The notes under the pieces were generated by a model. The model did no database searches. It was not told the origin of the DNA and saw only the letters and a program-made list of their open reading frames with translations. The translations under genes and the position numbers were made by a program. This document shows, piece after piece, positions 10,897-29,720 of a stretch of DNA of 32,319 nt (position 1 is the stretch's first letter; every line of letters starts with the position of its first letter). Source of the DNA: Candidatus Desulfobulbus rimicarensis (GTDB lineage: Bacteria > Desulfobacterota > Desulfobulbia > Desulfobulbales > Desulfobulbaceae); contig RKSL01000087.1 in NCBI GenBank assembly GCA_008633435.1, forward strand, positions 1 to 32,319, read 5' to 3'.

Positions 10897-11367
10897 TCGT
10901 CACTGCTCACCCCCTCCTTTTTTCGAAGTCACCGCTTTGTATGCCTTACCTGTACAAATTCGAGGTGTCTGTGAGTAATTATAGGGCTGATATAATGGAA
11001 ACACAGAGTTATCACCCTTCTGAGTGGGTATATGTAATCATATATCAGTATTGTTGATACTTTACGTTTTGTATCACGTACCCTGAAAACCTAAAAAGTA
11101 TGGAGATCTCAAAAGATATGATGAATATCCCGTTGGGAGCTCAATCGTTAAAATCGTATTTCCAGAGTGTTTGCGGGCTTGTATGCGTCATGCAACTCCG
11201 CTGGGTACGCTGATTTTACTTGAAAAAAAATTCGTTTTGAGATATGTTGGCAACTCTTACCCACGCTTCCAATCTCAAATACAAGGTGACCGGGATTTTT
11301 AAAAAGCCGGTTTTTACGGGAAAAGTGTGTGCTTTGTACCGACTTGTGGGCTATTCAAGGAGAGTTT
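10897..11367 (+). promoter_or_regulatory. Long leader region upstream of folD, structured, no gene
   Basis: About 470 bases separate recD2 from folD, and no credible gene is seen. A hairpin lies at 11173-11201: GCGG and CCGC at the base, and TTGTATG paired with CATGCAA around a CGT loop. A short ACCGG/CCGGT inverted repeat followed by TTTTT sits near 11285-11310 and could act as an attenuator. The folD ribosome binding site AAGGAG lies just before the ATG. The region probably contains the promoter of the Wood-Ljungdahl cluster, but no promoter could be fixed confidently. Confidence 0.4.
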
Positions 11368-12255
11368 ATGAGTGCTAAAATCATCAGTGGAACTGAAACT
11401 GCCAAGGCAATTCGTGAGGAACTTAAAGCTGAAGTTGCCGAGCTTACAGAAAAACACAATGTAATACCCGGGCTGGTCACTATTCTGGTTGGCGAAGACC
11501 CTGCGTCACAGTCGTATGTGGCAGCTAAAAATAAAACCGCCCATGCTCTGGGGATTCATTCTGAACAGATCACCCTTGATGCCGATACCAGTGAAGAAGA
11601 TCTGCTGGCTCTTGTTGACAAATATAACAACGACGAAAAAATTCACGGCATTTTAGTGCAGCTCCCCCTACCCAAACATATTAACGAAGCTAAAGTATTG
11701 TATGCCATTAATCCTGATAAAGATGTTGACGGCTTTCATCCTGTTAATGTCGGTAAGATGGTTCTTGGTGAGCAATGCTTTCTGCCCTGTACTCCCCATG
11801 GAGTTCTTGAGTTGCTGCAACGGGCGGGTGTTGAAACCTCTGGAGCCGAGGTCGTGGTTGTTGGCCGGTCAAATATTGTCGGTAAACCTGTGGCCAACCT
11901 GATGCTGCAGAAACGTGATGGTGGTAACGCAACTATTACTCTTTGTCATACCCGCACTAAAGATATGGAATTTCACACCAAACGTGCTGACATTCTTATC
12001 GTTGCAGCTGGTGTTGCCAATATGATCAAGGCAGACCAGGTAAAAGATGGTGTTGTTGTTATTGATGTTGGTGTGAACCGCATCGGGGTGACCGATTCTG
12101 GAAAGGCCAAACTTGCCGGAGATGTTGAATTTGATTCGGTCAAGGAAAAGGCGGCGGCAATCACTCCTGTGCCAGGCGGTGTTGGCCCCATGACCATTAC
12201 CATGCTTATGAAAAATACCGTACAGTCTGCCAAGCAGTTTGCCGGACTGGCGTAA
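11368..12255 (+). CDS. folD: Bifunctional methylenetetrahydrofolate dehydrogenase / methenyltetrahydrofolate cyclohydrolase
   Basis: FolD interconverts formyl-, methenyl- and methylene-tetrahydrofolate in the cytoplasm, the middle steps of the methyl branch of the Wood-Ljungdahl pathway. The protein is 295 residues, normal for the family. Signature motifs are present: SYVAAKNKTAHALGI with the catalytic lysine, DKDVDGFHPVN, the dinucleotide-binding VVVGRSNIVGKPVANLML and PVPGGVGPMTITMLM. The ATG at 11368 has AAGGAG 5 bases upstream; a longer frame to 11329 lacks support. It stands first in the C1 cluster, 88 bases before cooS. That intergenic stretch contains an inverted repeat GTCAGGCA/TGCCTGAC (12267-12312). 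Having a bifunctional FolD explains why no separate fchA is seen. Confidence 0.96.
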   Translation: MSAKIISGTETAKAIREELKAEVAELTEKHNVIPGLVTILVGEDPASQSYVAAKNKTAHALGIHSEQITLDADTSEEDLLALVDKYNNDEKIHGILVQLPLPKHINEAKVLYAINPDKDVDGFHPVNVGKMVLGEQCFLPCTPHGVLELLQRAGVETSGAEVVVVGRSNIVGKPVANLMLQKRDGGNATITLCHTRTKDMEFHTKRADILIVAAGVANMIKADQVKDGVVVIDVGVNRIGVTDSGKAKLAGDVEFDSVKEKAAAITPVPGGVGPMTITMLMKNTVQSAKQFAGLA

Positions 12256-12343: not shown

Positions 12344-14332
12344 ATGGCCAAATCCAATGGATGCAACAGCTGTAATGATATAACCGGAAGTTCAACGCTT
12401 GATCTGCTCAACCAGGATCTTGCCAAACAGGTGCGTACTGCCTATGACCGCATTGAAGATCGTGGCATGTCGTCCTGTCTTTTTGGCTCAGGAGGCACCT
12501 GTTGTCGTATCTGTAACATGGGCCCCTGTCAGATTATTGACGGTGTTGATGCCATGGTTGGAGTTTGTGGTGCTACAGCAGACACTGTTGCTGCTCGAAA
12601 TTTTGCCCGGATTGTCGCTGCCGGAACTGCGGCTCATACTGACCATGCCCGGGAAATGGTGCGTGGGTTTATTGCAACAGCCAAGGGGGACACCCCTCAT
12701 GAAATCAAAGATGTTGAGAAACTGCATAAGATAGCAAAAGTTTTCGATATTGAGATCGAGGGTCGGGATAAAAATGAGATTGCTCTTGAGCTTGGTGAAC
12801 GAGCGCTTGCTGAGTTTGGTCAGCAGGAAGGTTCTGTGACCATGCTTAAACGTGCCCCCAAAAAACAACAGAAAATATGGGAAGAACAAGGCGTTGCTCC
12901 TCGAGGGATTGATCGGGAAGTTGTTGAGACCATGCATCGTACCCATATGGGGGTTGACCAGGAATACAAAAATATCATGAAGCAGGCGGCTCGCTGTTCT
13001 CTGGCAGATGGCTGGGGAGCATCAATGCTCTCTACAGAGCTTACTGATATTATGTTTGGTACTCCCGTGCCCAAACGAGCCATTGTCGATCTTGGTGTGT
13101 TGCGGGAAGATATGGTCAATGTGACCGTTCATGGCCATGAGCCTCTTCTTGCTGAGTCACTGTGCCTTGCCGCAGAAGATGAAGAAATGCTTGCACTGGC
13201 CAAAAAAGCTGGTGCCAAAGGTATTAATCTTGCTGGTGTCTGCTGTACCGGCAATGAAATCCTGATGCGTCGCGGTATTCCTGTTGCCGGTTCGTTTATT
13301 CAGCAGGAGATGGTGCTGGCAACCGGAGCTGTTGAGGCAATGGTTGTTGATGTACAGTGTGTCATGCAGTCAGTAGCCCAGATAGTAAAGAATAAGCACA
13401 CCGATATCATCACCACCAATTACCGGGCCAAAATGCCCGATGCCATCCATATTCAGTTTGAAGAAGATGCGGCATATGACTCGGCCAAGAAAATTCTGAC
13501 CCGTGCCATTGGCAACTTCAAAAAGCGGGGTGAGTATTATATCCCTGAAGATAAAAAACTGGATGTCGTTGTCGGATTTTCCCATGAGACTATCAACTAT
13601 ATGCTAGGTGGCAGGTTTCGTCAGTCATACCGACCTTTAAACGATAATATTATTAACGGACGAATTCGTGGTGTTGGCGCGCTTGTCGGTTGTGAGCATT
13701 ACAAGCATTCCGATGATGTGCATTTTAAAATTGCAGTAGAGCTTATTAAAAACAATGTTCTTGTGCTGGCAACAGGTTGTGCTGCCCAGGCACTTGGCCG
13801 ACGTGGCCTGCTGCGCCCCGAGGCTGCCACTGAGTATGCCGGAGATGGCCTGCGCGAGGTTTGCGAGACTGTTGGTATGCCTCCTGTACTTCATGTCGGC
13901 TCTTGTGTGGATAATTCACGTCTGCTTATAGCCCTTACTGAAATGGTTAACGAGGGTGGGCTTGGCGATGATATTTCCGAGCTGCCGGCTGTTGGATCGG
14001 CACCACTCTGGATGAGTGAAAAAGCGGTTGCCATTGGTCAGTACTTTGTGACCAGCGGAGCCCATGTTATTTTCCAGGATCTTCCTGTTACTGGCGCTAA
14101 AAAGTTTACTGAGTTTATTCTTAATGGGCTTAAAGAAGAGTATGGTGCATGCTGGGGCGTGGAAAAGGATCCCATCAAGCATGCCCGGGCAATGATTGCT
14201 GCCATTGATGAGAAGCGTGAAGCCCTTGGCATTAACAAGAAGCAGGAACGTGTGCTCATGGATATGGCCATGCGTCGTGATCTTGAAGGGCAGTCGCTGC
14301 CCGGCATGGGATGCGGCCAGGGTGGACATTAA
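12344..14332 (+). CDS. cooS: Ni-Fe carbon monoxide dehydrogenase catalytic subunit
   Basis: This 662-residue enzyme reversibly reduces CO2 to CO, which is passed to acetyl-CoA synthase. N-terminal cysteines for the B and D clusters are visible (SSCLFGSGGTCCRICNMGPC). C-cluster ligands are also present: His in HGHEPLLAES and Cys in GVCCTGNEILMRRG, DVQCVMQSV, GCEHYKHSD, ATGCAAQALGR and HVGSCVDNSR. It is of the bacterial CODH type, and acsB two genes downstream shows that it works in a CODH/ACS complex (it could equally be named acsA). Its start has AGGAG 7 bases upstream. No cooC nickel-insertion gene is adjacent, so that factor would have to be encoded elsewhere. A hairpin at 14354-14382 follows. 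Confidence 0.97.
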   Translation: MAKSNGCNSCNDITGSSTLDLLNQDLAKQVRTAYDRIEDRGMSSCLFGSGGTCCRICNMGPCQIIDGVDAMVGVCGATADTVAARNFARIVAAGTAAHTDHAREMVRGFIATAKGDTPHEIKDVEKLHKIAKVFDIEIEGRDKNEIALELGERALAEFGQQEGSVTMLKRAPKKQQKIWEEQGVAPRGIDREVVETMHRTHMGVDQEYKNIMKQAARCSLADGWGASMLSTELTDIMFGTPVPKRAIVDLGVLREDMVNVTVHGHEPLLAESLCLAAEDEEMLALAKKAGAKGINLAGVCCTGNEILMRRGIPVAGSFIQQEMVLATGAVEAMVVDVQCVMQSVAQIVKNKHTDIITTNYRAKMPDAIHIQFEEDAAYDSAKKILTRAIGNFKKRGEYYIPEDKKLDVVVGFSHETINYMLGGRFRQSYRPLNDNIINGRIRGVGALVGCEHYKHSDDVHFKIAVELIKNNVLVLATGCAAQALGRRGLLRPEAATEYAGDGLREVCETVGMPPVLHVGSCVDNSRLLIALTEMVNEGGLGDDISELPAVGSAPLWMSEKAVAIGQYFVTSGAHVIFQDLPVTGAKKFTEFILNGLKEEYGACWGVEKDPIKHARAMIAAIDEKREALGINKKQERVLMDMAMRRDLEGQSLPGMGCGQGGH

Positions 14333-14382: not shown

Positions 14383-14427
14383 TGTTGCGTTTATATTTTG
14401 GAGTTTTGGATCAGGTAAGGAGGATTG

Positions 14428-17106
14428 ATGAAATCGGGGAGCAATTTGGAGCGGGTGCTCAAGAGCGGTACTTTTGCCGTAACCGGTGAGCTTGGCCCGC
14501 CGAAGAACAGTGACCCAGAGGTTGTCAGGGAAAAGGCGAGAATCCTTAAAGGGAATGTTGATGCTGTAAACATTACCGATTGCCAGACAGCTATAGTACG
14601 GATGTCGTCAATCGGCGCCGGATTAATAGCCCAGTCTGAAGGGGTTGAACCGGTTATCCAGATGACATGTCGGGATCGCAATCGGATCAGCATGCAATCA
14701 GACCTGCTGGCAGCTTCTGCCATGGGGCTTAAAAACCTCCTCTGCCTGACAGGTGATCACCAGAAATTTGGTAATCATCCTGGTTCAAAGGGTGTTTTTG
14801 ATATGGACTCCATCCAGATGCTTGGCATGGTCAGGGACATGCGTGATGCGAAAAAATTTCAGTGCGGGGAAGAAATAAAGGGCAAGTCTCCTGATTTTTT
14901 TCTAGGCGCTGCTGCCAATCCCTTTGCCTACCCTTTTGAATTCCGTGCAGTCCGCATGGGGAAGAAAATCAGTAACGGTGCTGATTTTATTCAGACCCAG
15001 ATTATTTACAATGTAGATAAATTTGCCAGATTTATGGAAATGGCCTGTGATCTCGGGTTACCAGAAAAGGCGTATATCCTTGCCGGAGTGACCCCGCCGA
15101 AGTCTCTTGGCATGGCCAGGTATATGAAAAAGTTTGTCCCTGGAATGGATGTGACTGATGAGGTCATTAATCGGATGAAAGGGGCCAAGGATAAAAAGCA
15201 GGAAGGTATTAATATCTGTGTTGATATTATCAACCAGGTTAAAGAAATAAAGGGTGTGGCCGGTGTCCATGTCATGGCTATTGAGTGGGAAGAGGCTGTG
15301 GCGGAGATTTGCGAAAATGCCGGACTTCTTCCCCGTCCTGGTTTTGATGACATTGCTGAGACAGCTGTGGCGACAGAGCAGCCCGCTGCTGATGAAACCC
15401 TGGAGGTGAGAGCCCGGGAAACTGATTCCGGCGCAACTGATGCGGTGATGGACGAGGCACGCAACGAAGCTGCAAAGATTGTTGCTGCGGCTCGTACCGA
15501 GGCTGAAGCAATACTGTCCGGTGCCCGGCCGGTAACTACGACGACTGAAACTACTGCCATAGTGAGTGATGATGCAGGAGAACATGAGATGAATGAAAAA
15601 GAGCGCCAGATGGCGTTGGAATCCGTAAATCAGGGGCTTAAAGCATTAAAGAGCGCTTATGGGCTGTCAGATGATCAGTTTGAGGCCTTGTTGAATTTTG
15701 CAAGTGCTGAGGCTGTATTGAAACGTGAACCAATCCTTGGAGCGACTGAAGCCGCACCTGTCGCCCCGGTGACTGCTGTAGCTCCTGCAGCAGATGATTC
15801 TGCAAAAAAGGCAGAGGACGCTGCTGCTGCAAAAGCACAAGCTGAAGCAAAGGCAAAGGCTGAGGCAGAAGCTAAAGCCAAGGCCGCTGCGGATGCCAAA
15901 GCGCAAAAAGAAAAAGAGGAAAAAGCAGCTGAGGCTGCTGCTCAAAAAGCGCAGGCAGAGGCGAAGGCTAAAGCAGAGTCAGAAGCCAAAGCCAAAGCAG
16001 AAGCTGAAGCCCAAAAGAAGGCACAGGCTGAAAAAGAGGCAAAGGCTGCCAAAGAGAGCAAGCCTGCGCCTGTTGCAAAAGCTGTTAAAGCAGCAGCCCC
16101 GGTAGCTGGACTTGCCGCTTCTGTGCTGGCTGTTGACGGAACGCCCTTTGCTGACCGGATAACTAAAGTTCCAGCCTCTGCCTATAAAGTAGACTATTCC
16201 GGTTCAATCCGTGAAGTTACTCTGGGTAACGGTGATAATGCAGTGACCGTCGGCGGAAGCACCTCATTGCCATTTCATCTCTTTGAAGGCGATATGCAGC
16301 ATAAACCGCTTGTGGCCATGGAAATTCTCGATGTCCGTCCGGATAACTGGCCTGATACTCTGAGTCAGTATTTTGACGATGTTATGGACAGCCCTGTGGA
16401 CTGGGCAAAGAAATGCATTGATGAGTACAATGCAGACGCCTTGAATATCTGGTTGATCGGTACAGATCCAAACGGTGAGAATCGACCTTCTGCCGATGCA
16501 GCCAAGGACGCTGCAGCTGTTATTGAGGCTGTTGATGTCCCGGTTATTATCTGGGGTTGTGGAAATTCAGAAAAAGATACTGAAACTCTGCGAGAGGTAA
16601 CCTCAATTATTGGCGACAAAAAAGTCTGTCTGGCTCCTCTTGAAGATGCCAACTACCGGGCTATAGGAGCAACTGCCATGGCTTTTCAACACCCAATGGT
16701 TGCGGCCTCACCCATTGATGTCAACCTTGCCAAACAGCTGAATATCCTTCTTGAAAATCTTGGGGTTCCTCTTGATACAGTCATGATGGATCCATCCATT
16801 GGTGCTCTTGGTTATGGTATTGAGTACACCTATTCTGTCATGGAACGTATCCGGATTGCAGCCCTTACCCAGAAAGATGAAAAACTGCAGGTACCGATTA
16901 TCTGTAACCTTGGCCGTGAAGTCTGGAAGACTAAAGAGGTCGGACTTCCCAGTGAAGAGTTGATGGGCGATCAGGAAAAACGTGGCATTATGATGGAGGC
17001 CATGACTGCATCCTGTATGCTGATGGCAGGTGGAGAGGTCCTTATAATGAGGCATCCCAAGGCCATCAATATGACAAAATCACTTATTAATGGTTTGGCA
17101 GGTTAA
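14428..17106 (+). CDS. Fusion of methylenetetrahydrofolate reductase (MetF) and corrinoid iron-sulfur protein small subunit (AcsD)
   Basis: The 892-residue product joins two consecutive pathway functions. Residues 1 to about 305 are MetF-like: TGELGPPKNSD, NITDCQTAIVRMSS, LLCLTGDH and FIQTQIIYNVDKFARFME. They should reduce methylene- to methyl-tetrahydrofolate. Residues from about 590 to the end are AcsD, the CFeSP small subunit that supports corrinoid methyl transfer to acetyl-CoA synthase: GGSTSLPFHLFEGDMQHKP, MEILDVRPDNWPD and MMDPSIGALGYGIEYTYSVM. The linker (about 305-585) includes a segment from residue 388 and a TolA-like Ala/Lys/Glu stretch (about 457-551) that should form a long helix. 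ATG at 14428 follows AAGGAGG; a TTG three bases earlier is too close to that site. An internal start at 15589 also has a good ribosome binding site. No metV or acsE is adjacent. Confidence 0.92.
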   Translation: MKSGSNLERVLKSGTFAVTGELGPPKNSDPEVVREKARILKGNVDAVNITDCQTAIVRMSSIGAGLIAQSEGVEPVIQMTCRDRNRISMQSDLLAASAMGLKNLLCLTGDHQKFGNHPGSKGVFDMDSIQMLGMVRDMRDAKKFQCGEEIKGKSPDFFLGAAANPFAYPFEFRAVRMGKKISNGADFIQTQIIYNVDKFARFMEMACDLGLPEKAYILAGVTPPKSLGMARYMKKFVPGMDVTDEVINRMKGAKDKKQEGINICVDIINQVKEIKGVAGVHVMAIEWEEAVAEICENAGLLPRPGFDDIAETAVATEQPAADETLEVRARETDSGATDAVMDEARNEAAKIVAAARTEAEAILSGARPVTTTTETTAIVSDDAGEHEMNEKERQMALESVNQGLKALKSAYGLSDDQFEALLNFASAEAVLKREPILGATEAAPVAPVTAVAPAADDSAKKAEDAAAAKAQAEAKAKAEAEAKAKAAADAKAQKEKEEKAAEAAAQKAQAEAKAKAESEAKAKAEAEAQKKAQAEKEAKAAKESKPAPVAKAVKAAAPVAGLAASVLAVDGTPFADRITKVPASAYKVDYSGSIREVTLGNGDNAVTVGGSTSLPFHLFEGDMQHKPLVAMEILDVRPDNWPDTLSQYFDDVMDSPVDWAKKCIDEYNADALNIWLIGTDPNGENRPSADAAKDAAAVIEAVDVPVIIWGCGNSEKDTETLREVTSIIGDKKVCLAPLEDANYRAIGATAMAFQHPMVAASPIDVNLAKQLNILLENLGVPLDTVMMDPSIGALGYGIEYTYSVMERIRIAALTQKDEKLQVPIICNLGREVWKTKEVGLPSEELMGDQEKRGIMMEAMTASCMLMAGGEVLIMRHPKAINMTKSLINGLAG
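15577..15591 (+). promoter_or_regulatory. Possible internal ribosome binding site and start inside metF-acsD
   Basis: GGAG at 15577-15580 is followed after 8 bases by an in-frame ATG (15589-15591), codon 388 of the fusion. The following residues, MNEKERQMALESVNQGLKAL, read like a natural protein start. Use of this site would give a 505-residue AcsD form with the linker but without MetF. This is inferred from sequence only. Confidence 0.45.
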
Positions 17107-17170: not shown

Positions 17171-19378
17171 ATGTCGAAGATTATCTGTTCTGCAGCTATC
17201 CGTGGCGCCCAGAAAATTGTGGATATGTCTGAGGAGACGTATGAGGAAGCCATTAAAAAATATGGCCCGGATCAGGAAGTCGCCTTTCCGAATACAGCCT
17301 ATTTTCTGCCGATTATTTACTCCATGCTTGGAGCCAAGGTGGAAAAACTCGGTGACATGAAAGATATTTTTCAGGAGTGCCGTAAATTGCTGCCGGCTAT
17401 TGTCACTGAAGATCTCTGGCTGCCTTATCTGGCTCCTGCACTTGACGCAGGGATGGCTACCTATTTTGCCGAGGAGATGTTTGAGGCGATCCGGTACCTT
17501 AATTCCCCGGATTTTTACACCAAAACCGAAGACCCAACTGCTGAGAATCTCTGGCTGGGTGCAGCTGATGATGTTATTTTTCGAAAACGTGGTGTCGAGT
17601 TTGTTGACGGCACGGCCCCTGGTTTTGCCGCCATTGTCGGTTCTCCTGAAGACAGGGAAACCGCCTCGAAAATTGCCATCGAGCTACAGGAAAAAAATCT
17701 CTACATCTTCATGCATGATCAGTCAAACGGCAAAAACATGGCTGAACTGCTGGTCGAAAATGATGTTCAGGTTGGCTGGGGGACACGCCTGGTGCCTTTT
17801 GGTAAATCCTACACATCTGTGGTCTTTGCCATAGGTTTTGCCTGCCGTGTTGCTCTGGCCTTCGGTGGCATTAAACCCGGTGATGCCATCGGTAACCTGC
17901 TCTACAATAAAGATCGTACCTTTGCCTTTGTCATGGCCTTTGGGCCGGTTAGTGACGAATGGTACGCCAATGCTGCAGGTGCCATTAACTGGGGTTTTCC
18001 AACAATTTCTGACTACGATATTCCCGAAGTCCTGCCCACCGGTATCTGTACATATGAGCATGTCGTTTCAAATATTCCCCATGATGAGATTGTCCAGAAG
18101 GCCATTGAGGTGCGTGGCTTAAAGGTTAATGTCACCAAGATTGACATTCCCATGTCTTTTGGCCCGGCTTTTGAGGGTGAGCGTATTCGTAAAGATGATC
18201 TCTATATGGAGTGTGGTGGTGGCCGGACAACCGGTGTTGAGGTGCTTATTTCCAAGGAAATGGATGAGATTGAAGATGGTGCCGTTATCATGGAAGGGCC
18301 GGATATCTGTGATATTGAACTGGGACAGAATCTGCCCATTGGTATCCTGGTGGAGGTTGCTGGACGTGAAATGCAGTCTGATTTTGAGCCTATTCTTGAG
18401 AGGCAGTTTCATCACTTGATGAACTATATCCAGGGGATCATGCATATCGGCCAGCGTAACATCATGTGGGTGCGTATTGGGAAGGCTGCTGTGGAGAAAG
18501 GCTTTTCCTTCAAACATCTTGGCGTTGTCCTGCATGGTAAACTGCATCAGGAATTCGGCGCAATCCTTGATAAGGTGCAAGTGAAAATCTACACGGTGCA
18601 GGATAAGGTCGAAGAGGTCATGGAAATAGCGAAAAGCGTCTACCATGAGCGTGATTTGCGCCTTGGTTCAATGACTGATGAAACAGAAGACGTGTTTTAC
18701 TCATGTACGCTCTGCCAGTCGTTTGCACCGAGTCATGTTTGTGTTATCACTCCGGAGCGAATCGGTATGTGTGGGGCCTATAACTGGCTTGACGGTAAGG
18801 CTTCTTTTCAGATTAACCCGACTGGTCCCAATCAACCCATTGAAAAAGGTGAATGTACTGACGAAGATAATGGCTACTATAGCGGGATTAACGAGTTTGT
18901 CAGTCAGGCTTCCCGTGGTGCTGTTACAGAAGTGAGCTGTTACTCACTCATGAATAATCCCATGACTGCCTGCGGTTGTTTTGAGGCAATCGCTGCCATG
19001 CTGCCCCAGTGTAACGGGATCATGGTGGTCAACCGTGACTACATGGGAATGACCCCGTCCGGGATGAAATTCACCACCTTGGCCGGAATGGCTGGCGGTG
19101 GTATGCAGACCCCAGGATTTATGGGGGTTTCCAAACATTACATGACCAGTAAAAAACTGTTCAAGGCAGAAGGCGGCATTAAACGTGTGGTCTGGCTGCC
19201 CAAGATGTTGAAAGAAGAGATTGCAGAGAAACTCAAGGAGGTCTGCGCGGACATCGGCATGCCTGAACTCTTTGATATGATTGCCACCGAAGAGCAGGGC
19301 ACGACCGAAGAAGAGATCATGGATTTTCTCAAAGAAAAAGGCCACCCTGCCCTTGAAATGGATGAGGCGATCGGCTAA
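17171..19378 (+). CDS. acsB: Acetyl-CoA synthase (CODH/ACS alpha subunit)
   Basis: AcsB makes or cleaves acetyl-CoA from CO, a methyl group and CoA at the Ni-Ni-Fe4S4 A-cluster. The 735-residue length shows the full bacterial form with the N-terminal CODH-binding domain, not the short archaeal CdhC. A-cluster cysteines fall at residues 512, 515, 524 and 534 (CTLCQSFAPSHVC and GMCG) and at 601 and 603 (CGC). Each is offset by six from the remembered Moorella positions (506, 509, 518, 528, 595, 597), so all ligands are present. AGGGAG lies 9 bases before the ATG. The gene follows metF-acsD by 64 bases, and a hairpin with a T-rich tail follows it. CODH, ACS and CFeSP genes being together implies a complete carbonyl-branch complex. 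Confidence 0.98.
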   Translation: MSKIICSAAIRGAQKIVDMSEETYEEAIKKYGPDQEVAFPNTAYFLPIIYSMLGAKVEKLGDMKDIFQECRKLLPAIVTEDLWLPYLAPALDAGMATYFAEEMFEAIRYLNSPDFYTKTEDPTAENLWLGAADDVIFRKRGVEFVDGTAPGFAAIVGSPEDRETASKIAIELQEKNLYIFMHDQSNGKNMAELLVENDVQVGWGTRLVPFGKSYTSVVFAIGFACRVALAFGGIKPGDAIGNLLYNKDRTFAFVMAFGPVSDEWYANAAGAINWGFPTISDYDIPEVLPTGICTYEHVVSNIPHDEIVQKAIEVRGLKVNVTKIDIPMSFGPAFEGERIRKDDLYMECGGGRTTGVEVLISKEMDEIEDGAVIMEGPDICDIELGQNLPIGILVEVAGREMQSDFEPILERQFHHLMNYIQGIMHIGQRNIMWVRIGKAAVEKGFSFKHLGVVLHGKLHQEFGAILDKVQVKIYTVQDKVEEVMEIAKSVYHERDLRLGSMTDETEDVFYSCTLCQSFAPSHVCVITPERIGMCGAYNWLDGKASFQINPTGPNQPIEKGECTDEDNGYYSGINEFVSQASRGAVTEVSCYSLMNNPMTACGCFEAIAAMLPQCNGIMVVNRDYMGMTPSGMKFTTLAGMAGGGMQTPGFMGVSKHYMTSKKLFKAEGGIKRVVWLPKMLKEEIAEKLKEVCADIGMPELFDMIATEEQGTTEEEIMDFLKEKGHPALEMDEAIG

Positions 19379-19492: not shown

Positions 19493-20842
19493 ATGGCGTT
19501 AACCGGTATACAGATTCTCAAGATGCTGCCCAAAAAGAATTGTGGTGAATGCGGCATCCCTACCTGTCTGGCATTTGCCATGAAGGTTGCAGCAGGTCAG
19601 ACTGAGATCGAAGAATGCCCGTATGTGAGTGATGAGGCGAAAGCGACCATTGGAGAGGCCTCAGCGCCGCCCATTCGTACCATCAAAATCGGGGCTGGTG
19701 ATGCCGAATTCACCGCAGGTGGAGAAACCTGTCTGTTTCGCCATGAAAAACGGTTTGAGAATCAAACCGGATTGGCAGTGCTTATCTCCACTAACGAGGA
19801 TGCAGCGGCCATAGACGGCAAGATTAAGCGGGCTAACGATTTTGAGTATGAGCGTGTCGGTGTGATGATGCGTAACAATCTTGTTGCCATTAAAGATGCC
19901 GGAGGCAGCAGCCTTGCCGACATTGTCAAAAAAGTTGCGGCTGATGCACCCAAGCAGGCCATTATCCTGATGAGTGAAGATATTGAAGCACTCAAGGCTG
20001 GAGCTGAAGCCTGCGGCGACAACAAACCGCTGCTTTTTGGGGCAACCACAGAGAGCGTTGACGGCTTTGCGGCCCTTGCCAAAGACACAGGTTGCGTGAT
20101 TGGGGTGAAGGGAAAAAACCTTGATGATCTAGTTGAAACGACTGACAAGCTTATGGCAGCAGGTGTGAAAGACATGGTCATTGACACCGGCGCACGAACC
20201 CTGCGTGAAGGGTTTGAGGACAACATTGTTGCCAGGAGATCAGCAGTAAAAGAAAAGTTTAAACCCCTTGGTTTTCCAACCATTACCTTCCCCTGTGAAA
20301 TGGCGGATGACCTGATGATGGAGGCGATGATCGGGTCTGTGTTAATGGCCAAGTATGCAGCAATCACAGTATTTTCTGATATTCAGGGCGATATTCTCTT
20401 TCCGTTACTGCTGGAACAGTTGAATATATTTACTGATCCGCAACGGCCCATGGTCGTGCAGGAGGATATTTATCCCATCACCGGGCCTGACGAGAATTCA
20501 CCGGTGCTCATTACCTGTAACTTTTCGCTCACCTATTTTATTGTTTCCGGTGAGATTGAAGGGTCGAAGATTCCCAGCTGGCTGCTTATCAAGGATACCG
20601 AAGGGTTGTCAGTTCTTACTGCCTGGGCAGCAGGGAAGTTTGGTGCTGATCTCATTGCCATGTTTGTGAAAAAATCCGGTATTGGTGACAAGGTTAAACA
20701 TCATGAGCTGATCATTCCCGGCTATCTGGCAACAATCAAGGGTGAGCTTGAAGAGGAGCTTCCTGACTGGACAATTACCATCGGGCCGCGCGAGGCTGGT
20801 CATCTGCCAGCATTTCTTAAAGAGTGGAAACCGGCCAGTTAG
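19493..20842 (+). CDS. acsC: Corrinoid iron-sulfur protein large subunit
   Basis: AcsC carries the 4Fe-4S cluster and, with AcsD, the cobamide that moves the methyl group from methyltetrahydrofolate to acetyl-CoA synthase. The N-terminal cluster motif has cysteines at residues 17, 20, 25 and 42 (NCGECGIPTC and EEC), the same positions as I recall for the Moorella protein. The 449-residue length is normal. The C-terminal region (LLIKDTEGLSVLTAWAAGKF, then HHELIIPGYLATIKGELEEE) fits the corrinoid-binding domain. A strong AAGGAGG lies before the ATG. Its usual partner acsD is not a separate gene here but is the C-terminal part of the metF fusion two genes upstream. Confidence 0.97.
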   Translation: MALTGIQILKMLPKKNCGECGIPTCLAFAMKVAAGQTEIEECPYVSDEAKATIGEASAPPIRTIKIGAGDAEFTAGGETCLFRHEKRFENQTGLAVLISTNEDAAAIDGKIKRANDFEYERVGVMMRNNLVAIKDAGGSSLADIVKKVAADAPKQAIILMSEDIEALKAGAEACGDNKPLLFGATTESVDGFAALAKDTGCVIGVKGKNLDDLVETTDKLMAAGVKDMVIDTGARTLREGFEDNIVARRSAVKEKFKPLGFPTITFPCEMADDLMMEAMIGSVLMAKYAAITVFSDIQGDILFPLLLEQLNIFTDPQRPMVVQEDIYPITGPDENSPVLITCNFSLTYFIVSGEIEGSKIPSWLLIKDTEGLSVLTAWAAGKFGADLIAMFVKKSGIGDKVKHHELIIPGYLATIKGELEEELPDWTITIGPREAGHLPAFLKEWKPAS

Positions 20843-20945: not shown

Positions 20946-23900
20946 ATGCCCACAGTCACAATTACGATAGACGACAAGGAAATCGTTGCCGAAAAAGGGT
21001 TAACCATCCTTGAGGTTGCCAGGCGTGCAGATATTGCCATTCCCACCCTCTGTTTTGTCAAAGATTCACTGTCTACACATCCCTGTGAGATTTGTGTTGT
21101 TGAAATTTCAAACTATGCAGACTCCGGTTTAAAATCGACCCTGTCTACAGACAGCTTGTTTAGAGCCTGTGTAACACTTGCCCTCGACGGCATGCAGATT
21201 ACCACCAATTCAGAACTGGTGACAACGCACAGGCAGCAGCGTCTTGCCGATATTTCTGCGACCCATTTTGGTGACTGTAAAGCACCATGTAATCTCACCT
21301 GTCCGGGGCAGATTAATGTGCAGGGCTATATAGCCCACGTTGCCAGGGGCGAATATGAAGAAGCACTTCGTCTGATCATGGAGCGTAACCCTGTGCCTTT
21401 TTCCGTGGGCAGGGTGTGTCCCCGTTTTTGTGAAACACGTTGTCGACGTATTCTGGTGGATGAGCCGGTGTCGATAAATCATCTCAAACGTTTTGTTGCA
21501 GACTGGTGCATGCGCAATGAGATTGACCTGAAAATTCCCAAAGACAAACCCACCGGCAAACGTATTGCGGTTATCGGTGGCGGGCCTGCCGGGTTGACAG
21601 CCGCCTGGTTTCTGACCAGAAAAGGCCATGATGTCACCATATTTGAAGCTGCCCCCAAATTGGGCGGTGCGCTCCGTTATGGATTTCCTGATTATAAAAT
21701 CCCCAGGGAAATTGTCGATTTTGAGGTGAATTCTATTCTGCGCATGGGCATGAATATTCGTCTTTCCCAGAGATGGGGGCGGGATTTCACCCTGCAGGAT
21801 TTAAAAGATATGGGCTATGATGCCACCTTTATCGCTATTGGTGCCACCATAGATGCCCCACTCGATGTGCCCTGTAATGAAAAGGATCATGTCTATAAGG
21901 CAACCGAGTTTTTGCGCATGATTAATGAAGGCCGTGAGCTTGATCTGGGCAAGAGTGCAGCGGTTATTGGCGGGAATAATATAGCCATGGAAGTGGCTCG
22001 CTCCCTGGTTCGTTGTGGAGTACAACAGGTTACAGTGATCTATCCCCGCGCCCGGATTGAAATGCCTGCCAACCAGCGTAATATCCGTGAGGCTGAAAAC
22101 GAAGGTGTTCAGTTTTTGCTCATGGCCTCTCCTGTCGGGTTATGTGGCACCCCCGATGATAATGCCCGTTTGAAACTCGATTTGATCAGGATGAAGCTGG
22201 GTAAGCCCGATAAACGGGGAAAACGTCCTGTGATGCCTATTCCCGATTCGAACAACTCGTTGGCTATTGATACGATTGTGTCATCACTTGGCCAGACTGC
22301 TGTGGCCAATGGCGAAATTAAGGGTGGTGAGCTTGAGGCTTCCATGAAAATCTCACCAACCGGAAATATTGCAGCCAACCCCCGCACGTCACTGACCAGT
22401 GTAGAGGGGGTTTTTGCCGGAGGCGATGCAACCTCAGGAACAAAAACAGTTATCCAGGCTGTGGTTTCTGCACGCCGAGCTGTCCCTAAGATTCATGCCT
22501 ATGTGATGAATCAGGAAAAAGAGGCACCGGAGAGTCGCTTCAATTTTCATCGGGGCCGTACCTTTGACGATGTATCGCTGAAGAATTTTGACGGCATTGC
22601 GGTCAATCTGCGCGAAAAAATGCCGGTGCGTCCCCCCGAAGTTTCCACTCAGGATTTTGATGAAGTCAAACTGGGGTTTACCGAAAAAATGGCCCGTCGT
22701 GAGGCCGAGCGTTGCCTGAAATGCGGCTGTACTGCCTTTGACCGTTGTGATCTTAAGCGTCTTGATATCGAATATGCGGTAAATATCAATAAAACAGGCA
22801 TGGGTAAAGAGCCGACCTATCCCATTGATACTGATCATCGGGCAATTACTGTAGATCGTAACAAGTGTATTTTCTGTGGTCGGTGTGAGCGATCCTGCCC
22901 CTATGACGCGCTGGAAGTGCGAGCTGACTCTTTGGACGATAAGGGGCGGCCGCTGGGGCTTGTTATTGACTTTAAAGACAACTGTGTTTCCTGTGGCAAA
23001 TGTGTGGATAACTGTTCCACCGGCGCCTTGAATAAGAAGAGCAGGATTGTGCCCATCCAGTCTGAAGAGGTACGCGATGTTCACACAACCTGTCCCTATT
23101 GTGGCACTGGCTGTCAGATAATATTAAAGGTCAAGGGGCATACCGTGATGGAGGCTACTGCTGATCCGGCAATCGGCCCGAATTATGGTGATCTTTGTGT
23201 GAAGGGCCGCTTTGGACATAATTTCATCCAGCACCCTGATCGTTTAACCCGGCCACTGATCCGTCGGCAGAAAGGGATGCCCCTTGAACCAGTGAAATGG
23301 GATGAGGCGCTTGATTTTATTGCCCAGTCCTTTTCCAGGATACGGGGAGAGAAGGGGCCGGACGCCCTGGCCGGACTTTCTTCGGCACGGTGTACCACTG
23401 AAGAGAACTATGCGTTCCAGAAATTTTTCAGATCCGGTATTGGTACAAATAATGTTGACCACTGTGCCAGGTACTGACACAGCCCAACGGTGACCGGTCT
23501 GGTCACAGTCCTGGGTTCCGGCGCAATGACCAACACCATCAACGGCATTATTGAGTCCGATGTGATGCTGGTGATTGGCTCAAATACAACAGAAACGCAT
23601 CCCATTATCGGCTTGCGCATGTTGACAGCGGCAAAAAAAGGCTCCAAACTGTTGGTGGCTGATCCTCGACGTATCAAACTCTGTGACAGCGCCACCTTAT
23701 GGATGCAGCAGCGGCCCGGCACAGATGGGGCACTTATTCATGCACTTTGCCATGTGATTTTACGGGAAGGGCTTGAAGATGCAGCATTTATTGAAGCGCA
23801 TACCGAGAACTTCGCAGCGTTTAAAGATTCTGTTGCTCAATGCACTCCTGAGTGGGCAGAGAAGATTTCTCAGGTACCGGCATCGGTCATTGAAGAGGCT

Positions 23901-25172
23901 GCACGGATTTTTGCCAGCGCAGAGAAAGCAGGTATTTACTACACCATGGGCATAACCCAGCATACTTCGGGGACGGATAATGTCTGCGCCCTTGCCAATC
24001 TTGCTCTTATTACCGGCAATCTTGGCAAACCCGGGGCAGGGCTTAACCCCCTCAGAGGGCAGAATAATGTGCAGGGCGCAAGTGACATGGGATGCAACCC
24101 TACATATTTCCCCGGCTACCAGCGCTTTGATGACGAAGCAGCCAGGGAAAAATTTTCTCAAATATGGGGAACGCCGGTTTCAGGGCGTCCTGGTCTGATG
24201 GCCACTGAGATGCCTGCTGCCATTACAGAGGGAAAACTTGCCGGATTATGGATCATGGGGGAAAATCCAATCCTGAGTGACCCCAACAGTGACCATGCCC
24301 GCAAGGCTTTTGAGCAGCTCGAGTTTTTGGTGGTACAGGATATATTCCTCACCGAAACGGCAGAGCTTGCCGATGTGGTTCTTCCTGCGGCATCATTTGC
24401 GGAAAAAGACGGTACCTTTACCAACACAGAGCGTAAGGTGCAGCGGGTTCGGCGTGCTGTGCCGCCTCGGGGAGAGGCCAGGGATGATCTTTCCATCATC
24501 AATATGGTGAGCAAACGTATGCTGGGGAGCCAGGGCGGCTATGCCGGGCCTGTTGATCCGCTGTATCATACTGTGGCGCCGCTTGCAGCTGATGTTTTTG
24601 CAGAAATTACCACCTGCTGGCAGGCAATGGCCGGAATGAGCTATGATCGGCTTGAACAGGGGGCTCTCACCTGGCCCTGTCCGGAAGCTGACCATCCCGG
24701 TACACCGATTTTACACACCCAGGGCATTGTCCGGGGCAAGGGATTGCTTTCAGCCCTTACCTGGAGTGGGCCGGAAGAGATTCCTGATGAGGAGTATCCT
24801 CTTATTCTCACCACAGGACGAGTGTTGTACCAGTACCATACCGGTACCATGACCCGTCGTTCGCCTGTGCTTGAGGGGGCCGCACCTTCTGCCTATGTGG
24901 AAATGAATCCTGAAGATGCCACTGCGCTTGACCTTGAGGATGGCAACGAAGTACAGGCATCATCACGCCGTGGTGCAATCCGGCTGCCAGTCAGGATAAC
25001 TGACCGGGTCAGGAAGGGGTTGGTGTTTATCCCCTTTCATTATAAAGAGGCAGCAGCAAACTTACTGACAAACGATGCTCTGGACCCGCAATGTAAAATT
25101 GCCGAAGCCAAGGTCTGTGCAGTTAAAGTAGAAAAAATTGCCGCAGAAAATGCAGCTATCAGCCTGAACTGA
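20946..25172 (+). CDS. fdhA: Selenocysteine formate dehydrogenase catalytic subunit fused to 2Fe-2S and GltD/NfnB-like flavin domains
   Basis: Reading the TGA at 23475 as selenocysteine gives one protein of about 1408 residues. Order: a 2Fe-2S domain (Cys 36, 47, 50, 75); a GltD/NfnB-like part with Cys 111, 115, 119, 158, 162 and 166, an FAD motif GGGPAG at 211 and a second dinucleotide motif near 340; two ferredoxin clusters (Cys 641-651 and 680-690); and a molybdopterin domain with Cys 716, 719, 723 and 751 and Sec 844 in DHCARYUHSP. The DHCARYU context matches formate dehydrogenases. It should interconvert CO2 and formate, the first step of the methyl branch, with the flavin part suggesting NAD(P)H coupling. 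No signal peptide is seen, so it is cytoplasmic. The ATG lacks a clear ribosome binding site. hdrA and mvhD follow, suggesting a bifurcating complex (inference). Confidence 0.93.
23475..23510 (+). promoter_or_regulatory. Selenocysteine TGA and SECIS hairpin of fdhA
   Basis: The in-frame TGA (23475-23477) is followed by GTGACC (23490-23495), loop GGTCT, and GGTCAC (23501-23506). The loop matches the GGUCU apical loop of E. coli fdhF, and its distance from the TGA (about 21 bases) fits bacterial SECIS elements. Confidence 0.92.
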
Positions 25173-25241: not shown

Positions 25242-28200
25242 ATGGGAAAAGGCATGGAACATAGGGCCGGATCAGTGATGGTCGTCGGCGGCGGAATTGC
25301 CGGTGTGCAGGCTGCCCTTGACCTGACTGAACTTGGTTACTACGTCTATTTGGTCGAAAAGGCACCTGTAGTTGGCGGGGTCATGGCCCAGCTGGACAAA
25401 ACCTTTCCTACCAATGATTGCTCTCTTTGAATACTTGCACCTAAGCTGGTAGAGGCCGGTCGGTCTCCAAATATAGAGATGCTCACCAATGCGGATCTTC
25501 TGGCATTGGATGGAAAACCCGGTGACTTCACCGCAAAAATCAGGCAGCGTCCGCGCTATATTGATGCGGATAACTGTACAGCCTGCGGGTTATGCACCCA
25601 GTACTGCCCCAAACATTTGGTGGATCCGTACAACGAAGGATTGGCATTAACCCGGCCTATTCATATAGATTATGCCCAGGCTGTGCCCGCCACCTACTAT
25701 ATTGATCCTTCGTCATGTCTCCATCTGACCCATGATACCTGCCAGATCTGTGTGCCGGTCTGTCAGAGTCATGCGATTAATTTCAGCCAGCAACCCGAAG
25801 AGATTTCGCTTAAAATTGGAGCGGTTATTCTTTCTCCCGGTTTTGGCAGGATCAGTAAAGAAACCCTTGCCAAATTCTCGTATGGCAAGCATCCAGACAT
25901 TGTTACAGCTGTTGAGTTTGAACGAATGACAACAGCCTCTGGGCCTTTTTTGGGCGAGGTAAAATGCTTTTCTGATGGACGTCATCCCAAGTCCATTGCC
26001 TTTATCCAATGTGTGGGTTCCCGTGATCTTGGTTGCAATAACGGCTATTGTTCTTCAGTGTGTTGCATGTATGCCATAAAAGAGGCACTGGTAGCGAAAG
26101 AACATGATCCTGAAGTTGATATTACAGTCTATTACATGGACATCCGCACCCAGGGCAAAGAGTTTGATAAGGCACAGCTGCGGGCCGAGGCCATGGGAAT
26201 TAAATTTGTTCGAGCCAAAGTGGCTGATGTCACCCCCTGGGAGAACAGGTTGCAGCTTACCTATTCAACCCTTGATGGCAGACACGAGTTTGTACCCCAT
26301 GACATGGTGGTGCTTTCTGTTGGTCTTGAAGCACCCAAGGATGCGCACGGGATTGCCAAAATCACCGGTATTGAACTGAATCAATATGATTTTGCCAAGT
26401 CAGACACGTTTGATCCTTTGACAACCAATGTTGACGGTGTTGTTGTGGCAGGTGCTTTTCAGGGGCCAAAAGATATTCCCGAATCTGTAACTCAGGCCTC
26501 AGCTGCAGCTGGGCTTGTTGCCGGAATGCTTGAAAAACAGCGTGGTCAGGGAATTGTTCACACCGAATATCCTGAAGAAAAGGCCATGGGCGAAGAGGTT
26601 CGTATTGGCGTTTTTGTCTGCCATTGCGGTATTAACATTGCCTCTGTTGTGGATGTGCATAAAGTTGAAGATTCTGTTGAAGACATGGAAGGTGTTGTCT
26701 ATCACACCGATTCACTCTATTCCTGTTCCGCAGATGCTGTAGAGACCTTAAAAGAGCGTATTATTGAACATAATTTGAACAGGGTCGTCATTGCGGCATG
26801 TTCTCCACGCACCCATGAACCTCTTTTTCAGGAAACACTGAAAAGCGCAGGGCTGAATCGCTGTCTGATTGAGATGGTGAATATTCGGGATCAATGTTCC
26901 TGGGTTCATGCCGGGGAGCCTGATGCAGCAACAAACAAATCAGAAGATCTGGTGCGTATGGCTGTTGCCAAGGCGCGAGGCATGCAGCCTCTTCCCGAGC
27001 AGACTGTGCCGGTAACCCCCAAGGCGGTGATTGTCGGTGCCGGTATAGCCGGTATGACAGTCGCTCTTACTCTTGCTGATCAGGGGTTTGATTCTGTACT
27101 GCTTGAAAAAGGGAAAACTCTGGGGGGCAACCTTGGTTTGCTGAACCATACCCTTGATGCCAGTGAAACGGCTGCAAAGCTGAAACAACTGGTGGCAAAG
27201 GTCAAGAAAAATAAGAAAATTGATGTGATTACCAGTGCAGAACTTGTAGATTTTTCCGGTTTTGTTGGGAATTTCTCTTCTGTTGTTGCAAGTGGCAAAA
27301 AAGAGCATACCATTGACCATGGTGTTGTAGTACTGGCCACTGGCGGACATGAGCATCGACCAGGCGGGTATTTACTGGATGAAAACAAAAAAGTACTCAC
27401 CCAGATGGAGCTTGAAAAACGGCTTGCTGGTAGAGCTAAGAATAGAGCGCCTGACTCTATAGTCATGATTCAGTGTGCCGGTTCCCGTGGCGATGATCTG
27501 AAGTATTGCTCAAAAGTCTGCTGTAATCATGCGGTAAAAAATGCATTGCAGATTAAGGAGCTGAACCCTGATTCCCAGGTCATAGTGTTGTACCGGGATA
27601 TGCGAACTTACGGCTATGCTGAGGATGCTTACCGTGAAGCGCGCTTAAAAGGTGTTATTTTTATTCCTTACGAGATCGAAAATAGACCTGAAGTCTATGA
27701 AAAAGGTCGCAAACTGCATGTTAAATTCTTTGATGAACTCATGCAGGAGGAAATGGATATAACCCCTGACCTGGTCGCACTTTCTGTTGGTATTGTTCCA
27801 GACGGAACCGAAGACTTGAGCAAGCTTCTGAAAGCGCCTCTTACCGATGATAAATTCTTTCTTGAAGCGCATGTCAAACTTCGTCCGGTGGAGTTGCCAG
27901 TGTCTGGCGTGTATGTCTGCGGGCTGGCCCATGGGCCGAAGCCTGTGGATGAGACTATTGCCCAGGCCCAGGCAGCAGCTGCAAAAGCAGCAATCCCGCT
28001 GGTCAAAGGAGCGGTTTCTGTTGATCCTATTGTGTCAACAGTAGATCAGGACAAGTGTATTGGCTGTAGTCTTTGTGTGAGTCTTTGTCCGTTTGGAGCT
28101 ATTGAGATGATTAAGGTTGGTAAGCGGCGTAAGGCACAGACGATTTCTGCCTCATGTAAGGCCTGCGGTATCTGCTCCAGCCATTGTCCGACTTTTGCAA

Positions 28201-28292
28201 TATCAATGGGTGGCTTCACCAATGAGCAGATTACCGACCAGATTATTGCATTTGGTGGCGTAAAGGAAAAAGAAACCGCCGATGTGGCGTAA
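25242..28292 (+). CDS. hdrA: Selenocysteine-containing HdrA-like flavin electron-transfer protein, double-module
   Basis: Read through the TGA at 25428, the product has 1016 residues. An N-terminal HdrA module has the FAD motif [12 protein letters not shown], then PTNDCSLU with Cys 60 and Sec 63, where HdrA proteins normally have Cys, and a ferredoxin-like motif [12 protein letters not shown] second module begins at [13 protein letters not shown], has its own FAD motif [14 protein letters not shown], and ends with two 4Fe-4S motifs ([11 protein letters not shown] and [11 protein letters not shown]). HdrA is the flavin-bifurcating core of heterodisulfide-reductase-type complexes, which couple ferredoxin to other redox partners. 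Since hdrB and hdrC are absent, this copy probably links FdhA and MvhD, as in other FdhA-HdrA-MvhD clusters. GGAG lies before the ATG. The gene is 69 bases after fdhA. Confidence 0.93.
25428..25467 (+). promoter_or_regulatory. Selenocysteine TGA and SECIS hairpin of hdrA
   Basis: After the in-frame TGA (25428-25430), GAGGCC (25452-25457), loop GGTC and GGTCTC (25462-25467) form a 6-bp stem with one G-U pair. The loop lies about 30 bases from the TGA, within the usual bacterial range. Confidence 0.82.
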
Positions 28293-28333: not shown

Positions 28334-28933
28334 ATGAGCGATGATTTTAATCCCAAGATTTTGGGTTTTCTCTGTAACTGGTGCTGTTATGCAGCAGCTG
28401 ATGCTGCCGGGGTTTCCCGGTTTCAGTATCCTCCCAACCTGCGAACGATTCGGGTAATGTGTACGGGCCGAGTCGACCCTGCTTTTATTGTACGTGGCTT
28501 TATTGAGGGTGCAGACGGTATCTTTACCGGTGGCTGACAACTTGGCGAATGTCATTACCAGGTTGGTAATTATGATGCAATGGGCGCAGATGCGTTGGTC
28601 AGAAAAGTATTGGAAGAGGTCGGTATCCGTAAGGAACGCTATGATCTTGAGTGGGCTTCTGCTGCTGAGGCTCCCCGCTTTGTCGAGTTGATAACAAAGT
28701 TTACCGCCAGCATGAAAGAGCTTGGGCCACTTGGTGAGGCAGAAGGATTATCACCGGACGAGGTCAAAGAACGATTGCAGAAGGCGCTTGAGGTGGTGTC
28801 CAGCCAGAGGGTGAGAATCAGCTTTGGTAATGCCAGTAAAGCTGTTCGTAAAGATGGTGTCTGGACAAAAGAGCATATTGATGAGATTATTACCACGAAG
28901 ATAGCGAAATCTCTTGATAAGGCACTTGCCTGA
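28334..28933 (+). CDS. mvhD: Selenocysteine-containing MvhD (methyl-viologen-reducing hydrogenase delta-type) iron-sulfur protein
   Basis: Read through the TGA at 28535, the protein has 199 residues. It shows the MvhD 2Fe-2S domain: LGFLCNWCCYAAADAAG, RVMCTGRVDP and GIFTGGUQLGECHY, where Sec 68 replaces the usual cysteine. MvhD passes electrons between HdrA and a hydrogenase or formate dehydrogenase; here the neighbouring FdhA is the likely partner, because no hydrogenase is in the window. The C-terminal third is helical and ends in a lysine-rich tail. GAGG lies before the ATG, 42 bases after hdrA. In methanogens the equivalent VhuD is a known selenoprotein, so Sec at this place has precedent. 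A strong terminator follows at 29042. Confidence 0.93.
28535..28570 (+). promoter_or_regulatory. Selenocysteine TGA and SECIS hairpin of mvhD
   Basis: After the in-frame TGA (28535-28537), ATTACC (28554-28559), loop AGGTT and GGTAAT (28565-28570) form a perfect 6-bp stem with a GGU-containing loop, about 25 bases from the TGA. Confidence 0.87.
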
Positions 28934-29530: not shown

Positions 29531-29720
29531 CAAAATATGCAGAGAGTTCAACGTATCCACATTGCGAGCCATCAACAACACACTCACATGAGACCAGGCT
29601 CCTCGTGTGCCCATCCCGATACCTTCGTTATACACGTGTCCTGTCGGTTTATGGTCGTAGTCTATAAATTTAACCATGAATATCAGGCGGTCAACTTGCC
29701 TGAACTCACAAATTATAATC

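Follow-up and report, generated by a model that had tools for sequence, protein, structure and literature searches.

A metF-acsD fusion gene of the Desulfobulbales with a conserved, probable internal start and a reductase half of MetV-partner ancestry

Introduction

Two matters are open for the Wood-Ljungdahl pathway: how the folate branch hands its methyl group to the corrinoid protein, and what amount of reductase a cell makes for each corrinoid protein. Both questions are written into a single gene, kept across the order Desulfobulbales, including cable bacteria and sulfur disproportionators, that joins methylenetetrahydrofolate reductase (MTHFR, MetF) to AcsD, the small subunit of the corrinoid iron-sulfur protein (CFeSP). 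What does such a gene make? We analysed it in a window of 32,319 nucleotides from Candidatus Desulfobulbus rimicarensis (contig RKSL01000087.1), to which all coordinates refer unless another locus is named. Here we report the fusion, its conservation, the selection on its internal start and its MetV-type ancestry, and we consider it to be, with a probability of about 70%, a two-product carbon-fixation gene in which a MetV-recruiting MetF is tethered to AcsD.

The fusion itself is not new. The sequence-only reading that drew attention to it had left open whether it was already described; it was labelled in 2016, when the genome paper of Desulfurivibrio alkaliphilus AHT2 entered DaAHT2_0827 as an ‘mthfr/acsD ... 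fusion’ among its abbreviations (Melton et al., 2016, PMC5016858). In the available parts of that paper, the main text names the same gene methylene-THF reductase and cites the Moorella genome paper for related gene clusters of MLMS-1. TDIS_1006 of Thermosulfurimonas dismutans, within the pathway cluster, is listed as MTHFR only (PMC4911364), in Desulfurivibrio dismutans the genes of the cluster are expressed together as one unit (PMC12142623), and a survey of Desulfobacterota for the pathway, from 2026, makes no mention of MetF (PMC12827605). The new parts are the internal start and the relation to MetV; in the literature searched, which took in few subscription journals, no description was found of either, nor of the AcsC-AcsE fusion discussed below. 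An annotation that names only the MTHFR or only the AcsD part leaves the other half of the gene out of sight.

The fusion gene and its neighbourhood

The fusion sits in a Wood-Ljungdahl cluster, with folD and cooS on its 5′ side and acsB, acsC, formate dehydrogenase, HdrA and MvhD-like genes on its 3′ side:

11329 to 12255, forward strand: folD (Pfam)
12344 to 14332, forward strand: cooS/acsA, CO dehydrogenase (TIGR01702, over cut-off)
14417 to 14423, forward strand: AAGGAGG, a good ribosome-binding site for the long product (from sequence)
14428 to 17106, forward strand: metF-acsD fusion open reading frame, 892 amino acids, 95.2 kDa; kept as a single frame in over 100 genomes
14428 to 15345, forward strand: MetF barrel, residues 1-306, MetV-partner type by ancestry (PF02219, invariant columns, Foldseek, metV adjacency in relatives)
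16180 to 17103, forward strand: AcsD, residues 585-892 (PF03599, NF003376 over cut-off, match to 2h9a_B)
17171 to 19378, forward strand: acsB, acetyl-CoA synthase (NF040764, over cut-off)
19493 to 20842, forward strand: acsC (NF003195, over cut-off)
20946 to 25172, forward strand: formate dehydrogenase with a fused NAD(P)H/ferredoxin module, a single frame if the TGA at 23475-23477 is selenocysteine
25242 to 28292, forward strand: HdrA-like subunit, with the TGA at 25428-25430 read as selenocysteine
28334 to 28933, forward strand: MvhD/FlpD-like subunit, with the TGA at 28535-28537 read as selenocysteine

The contexts of the three in-frame TGA codons resemble selenocysteine sites (CARYUH in the formate dehydrogenase, CSLUIL in HdrA and TGGUQLGEC in the MvhD-like protein), and all three genes come out split or shortened in standard gene calling. 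Just 3′ of the carbon-fixation cluster, positions 29676-31223 encode a disaggregatase-related/right-handed beta-helix protein.

The frame runs without a stop from the ATG at 14428 to the stop codon at 17104-17106, as the sequence-only reading had claimed, and its assignment of the two ends (MetF at residues 1 to about 305, AcsD at about 590-892) is upheld by profiles over their cut-offs, with AcsD now placed at 585-892. The MTHFR family (PF02219) matches residues 7-299 with 128.4 bits against a cut-off of 24, CdhD (PF03599) matches residues 596-838 with 148 bits against 24.8, and the NCBIfam AcsD model NF003376 scores 380.9 bits against 280. Within MetF, E21, D110 and Q191 are invariant in all 76 fusions, and E18, GD and TQ of Thermus MTHFR align opposite E21, D110 and the TQ motif; the catalytic Glu, Asp and Gln of the Escherichia coli enzyme we take to be Glu28, Asp120 and Gln183. 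Profile, barrel fold and catalytic residues together identify the fused MetF as an MTHFR, and profile, fold and an acsC partner in the operon identify the other half as AcsD.

Distribution and ancestry

By count of matches, 106 of the 243 genomes sampled from the class show a single continuous match that covers some 800 or more of the 892 residues (one of them, G122, carries an internal TAG), with frame lengths of about 850-945 amino acids across the order; in other sampled genomes of the class the matches are cut by contig ends. Carriers include the cable bacteria Candidatus Electrothrix gigas and Candidatus Electronema aureum, Desulfocapsa, a Desulfurivibrionaceae bacterium and, more distantly, Thermodesulfatator atlanticus. 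No break interrupts the frame in more than 100 other genomes, among them single-contig assemblies (G009, G035, G039, G124 and G129), which rules out an assembly artefact and answers the earlier worry about a stop or frameshift in the linker.

In the wider phylum a second fusion-bearing group is found (families f42, f43, f62, f69, f75, f78, f79, f91 and f96), and most other members keep metF and acsD separate. The sequence-only reading had proposed mapping proteins with both domains in one chain on a tree; those found form one AcsD clade, all fused rows and one split row (L171) being set apart together by a branch with SH-aLRT 99, and the AcsD tree gives the fusion one origin. For MetF, the unfused, MetV-paired proteins group as a single clade in the tree, with the fused ones making up the remainder; this tree carries long-branch warnings and leaves root and direction (fusion then loss, or gain) without a call. 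The unfused genome G359 (L146) has metV, metF and acsD as three neighbouring genes, otherwise in the order of the Thermodesulfobacteria-type cluster described below, and this layout looks like the state before fusion. Several genera of family f12 with large genomes hold unfused AcsDs with about 210 extra C-terminal residues and no Pfam match there (L161 8402-9964, L162 8666-10240, L163-L167), in the gene order acsD-cooS-acsB-acsC-acsE. These are not fusion remnants, as the extra 210 residues are C-terminal and the proteins form a separate clade in the AcsD tree.

The linker

Between the two enzymes lies a linker of about 279 amino acids (residues 307-584), in which the following parts can be told apart:

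15346 to 15588, forward strand: connector, residues 307-387; disordered apart from a moderately conserved helix at 337-364, and very variable at 361-380
15589 to 15723, forward strand: conserved helical hairpin, residues 388-432 (conservation; model helices 385-411 and 415-432), also in Thermodesulfobacteria fusions
15805 to 16047, forward strand: long Ala/Lys/Glu-rich helix, residues 460-540 (model and composition); 81 residues, about 12 nm if straight

The structure model, built from 76 sequences (mean pLDDT 80.5, pTM 0.53), is largely confident for both barrels and, at this pTM, does not imply a relative placement of the domains. It places linker helices at 337-364, 385-411, 415-432 and 460-540, separated by disordered stretches at 310-333, 366-388 and 433-460. 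By Foldseek the AcsD part matches 2h9a_B (AcsD) with a TM-score of 0.94 by target length, and the MetF part matches MTHFR structures.

A linker of about 280 residues with an Ala/Lys/Glu-rich helix had been noticed from the letters, and stands (38 Ala, 20 Lys and 15 Glu at residues 458-540); the conserved helix at 337-364 and the hairpin at 385-432 had been missed. Its description as TolA-like holds for composition only, since the TolA profile reaches 18.9 bits against a cut-off of 59.45 and homology is rejected. Pfam searches with the pieces of about 305-440 and 439-581 returned no known domain at a meaningful E-value, and in particular no lipoyl or peripheral-subunit-binding domain of an E2-type swinging arm. 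Matches of the hairpin to TAL effectors in the PDB were repeat-inflated, no single stretch passing alone, and were discarded. In some relatives, TPR repeats replace the Ala/Lys/Glu helix of the MetF-AcsD linker (L125 3467-6595).

A probable internal start within the linker

The boundary between connector and hairpin coincides with a second set of initiation signals, in the context GCA GGA GAA CAT GAG ATG AAT GAA:

15574 to 15582, forward strand: internal Shine-Dalgarno (SD) sequence GCA GGA GAA, core AGGAG at 15576-15580, encoding A383-G384-E385
15589 to 15591, forward strand: internal start codon ATG (Met388), 8 nt past the SD core; invariant in 75 genes
15589 to 17106, forward strand: predicted second product, arm-AcsD, residues 388-892; 505 amino acids, 53.4 kDa, inferred from the internal start, with a stand-alone counterpart in L171

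The nucleotides of the internal start are under selection. The Gly384 codon is GGA in 75 of 75 Desulfobulbales fusions, in genes where GGA makes up 15% of Gly codons and where the next-highest GGA share among the 41 invariant Gly columns is 27%. When synonymous codons were redrawn from each gene's own usage, GGAG before Met388 was expected in 17.4 ± 3.6 genes, against the 75 of 75 seen, and a comparable excess was absent at 15 other conserved Met positions. The strongest synonymous constraint of the whole gene falls in the eight-codon windows starting at residues 378-384. A class-wide scan, partly covering genomes beyond these 75, found the GGA form of the motif in 140 of 258 genomes, a few of these matches lying outside any fusion (e.g. 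G113 and G229), and the GGC, GGG or GGT form in only two matches, both outside the fusion gene. With a canonical anti-SD assumed for the 16S tail, the SD energy at Met388 is -7.5 kcal/mol, next to -8.1 at Met1, -7.3 at the acsB start and -3.3 at other in-frame ATGs. Protein conservation follows the same boundary: it is 15-45% at residues 368-380, jumps at A383-G384-E385 and M388-N389-E390, and includes many invariant residues from 384 on. An internal promoter is rejected, as no promoter-like site was found on the forward strand near the internal start, promoter matches being at chance level.

Since the conserved internal start precedes the hairpin arm, free AcsD is probably made too, the sequence pointing to a short form of 53.4 kDa (388-892) in addition to the 95.2-kDa fusion. 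As this short form would begin with the hairpin and long helix, they count as part of AcsD no less than as part of the fusion. A separate AcsD chain in proteomics would not speak against the fusion, given the internal start.

It could instead be that the 95-kDa fusion alone is made, the linker GGAG acting as a programmed pause for MetF folding and Met388 being an ordinary residue. SD-like sites within genes can slow ribosomes, and this one lies in a disordered gap just past MetF and helix 337-364. A pause has no need of a start codon at optimal spacing, yet the ATG is invariant, and the protein 3′ of the site is conserved like a separate N-terminus. Moreover, in the f43 fusions L177 and L178 GGAGG is followed by GTG at the homologous place, and L171 uses that place as a true gene start: here (G340, L171 9180-11324) a TAA in frame directly behind MetF splits the fusion, and where Met388 would be stands a start codon preceded by a ribosome-binding site of its own; the arm stays with the stand-alone AcsD (L171 9180-10400). 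We therefore regard a pause as unlikely. Post-translational cleavage within the linker, leaving MetF and AcsD to work separately, is very improbable: the linker does offer long disordered stretches (310-333, 366-388 and 433-460), but no cleavage motif was seen in it, arm and hairpin are conserved, and the internal start would already supply free AcsD.

Invariance of the internal start is confined to Desulfobulbales. Among Thermodesulfobacteria fusions several carry a strong SD with ATG or GTG at this place, the start being clear in L154, L155, L173 and L177-L179, and absent in others.

The relation to MetV

The Thermodesulfobacteria-type cluster reads folD, cooS, hdrA, mvhD-like, hdrC, mvhD, metV, metF-acsD, acsB, acsC, acsE, fdh, with part of the hdr block missing from some f42 genomes. 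Here metV lies directly upstream of the fusion (L151-L156, L170 and L172-L179), and in many unfused relatives it lies directly before metF, with acsD elsewhere. Because metV adjoins metF or the fusion in these relatives, the fused MetF is, by ancestry and orthology, of the MetV-partner type that characterises MetVF-type reductases. In the genome studied here metV is present, unlinked to metF-acsD; an hdrC-mvhD-metV block without metF stands at another locus in this genome and in six other Desulfobulbales, and the MetV stranded there probably has the fused MetF as its partner.

Two other MTHFR-like genes occur in the same genome, a homocysteine methyltransferase-MetF-like protein and a separate MetF-MetV (MTHFR-DUF5981) fusion of 500 amino acids (L135 343-1845). 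Candidatus Desulfobulbus rimicarensis has been described as lacking metV and carrying metF twice (PMC7117923); the fusion and its relation to MetV may account for the missing metV and extra metF reported in this group.

A second fusion of adjacent steps

Fusions of AcsC to AcsE through a Lys/Glu-rich linker were found in G417 (L155 13111-15561), where Pfam confirms both halves and the operon also carries MetF-AcsD, and again in G340 (L171 4461-6863). Both genomes are of the Thermodesulfobacteria type, and sister genomes keep AcsC and AcsE separate. In a joint reading that we hold only tentatively, at slightly less than even odds, an AcsE covalently attached to AcsC would place methylene-THF reduction and methyl transfer inside one AcsC:AcsD heterodimer.

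These fusions bear on whether the MetF-AcsD junction tethers pathway steps. It may have arisen by neutral loss of the metF stop codon, with no tethering of steps and with an arm that only prevents domain clash; the unfused metV-metF-acsD neighbours of L146 are as this would have it, linkers vary widely in length and type (TPR repeats in L125), and relatives manage without the fusion. Against this, the fusion is kept across many families and two classes, even after metV and acsE have moved far off, with one clear fission only (L171), and the independent AcsC-AcsE fusion in the same operon again joins adjacent steps. Since adjacent steps are joined at two places in the operon, a functional tether is favoured over neutral accident, which we judge rather unlikely. 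Such a tether is not essential, because unfused genes persist in some relatives of the same order, in a cluster that looks complete. Loss of acsE is rejected as a reason for the fusion: acsE lies alone, away from the fusion, in this genome (on another contig) and in the six other Desulfobulbales.

Proposed mechanism

From its architecture, tethering of a MetV-type MetF to the corrinoid protein is plausible; use of the internal start, a complex with MetV and a kinetic benefit are inferred. The full frame would give a MetF-arm-AcsD protein, and the second start in the linker, just 5′ of the hairpin, arm-AcsD alone. Either form of AcsD could build the corrinoid iron-sulfur protein together with AcsC, yielding a mixed pool in which only a fraction carries MetF. 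As the catalytic half of a MetVF-type reductase, the fused MetF would recruit MetV from its separate locus and, through MetV, the HdrC/MvhD electron carriers. Methyl-tetrahydrofolate could then be made beside the corrinoid protein, at a higher local concentration for an AcsE docked on the same protein, with the hairpin and the 12-nm helix serving as spacer and docking arm. The two-product reading predicts AcsD bands of 95 and 53 kDa, the shorter of which should be lost with a silent GGA-to-GGC change.

Comparison with known systems

The AcsD barrel resembles known structures (TM-score 0.88-0.95 by target length), and the fused AcsD differs from known AcsD in its N-terminal arm of hairpin and long helix, with MetF ahead of the arm. 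In cheA and infB, an in-frame internal start gives a long and a short form; there, likewise, a ribosome-binding site and ATG are conserved and the short form lacks the N-terminal domain, whereas in metF-acsD a second enzyme of the pathway is part of the long form and the short form is predicted.

DaAHT2_0827 of Desulfurivibrio alkaliphilus is the same fusion of methylene-THF reductase and CFeSP small subunit, in the same order and beside cooS and acsB; its account, in the available parts of the paper, includes no internal start, link to MetV or distribution (PMC5016858).

The closest relation on the reductase side is the Hdr-type MetVF of Moorella thermoacetica and Sporomusa ovata, with the same MetV-partner MetF and genes for HdrC, MvhD and HdrA, a gene block also present in Thermodesulfobacteria (PMC9430772). 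The MetVF preparation purified from Sporomusa ovata contained AcsC and AcsD, AcsD being a separate native band there and so possibly contamination (PMC9430772). In Moorella and Sporomusa MetF is a separate 35-kDa protein (PMC9430772), whereas in Desulfobulbales it is fused to AcsD and hdrC-mvhD-metV stands at another locus.
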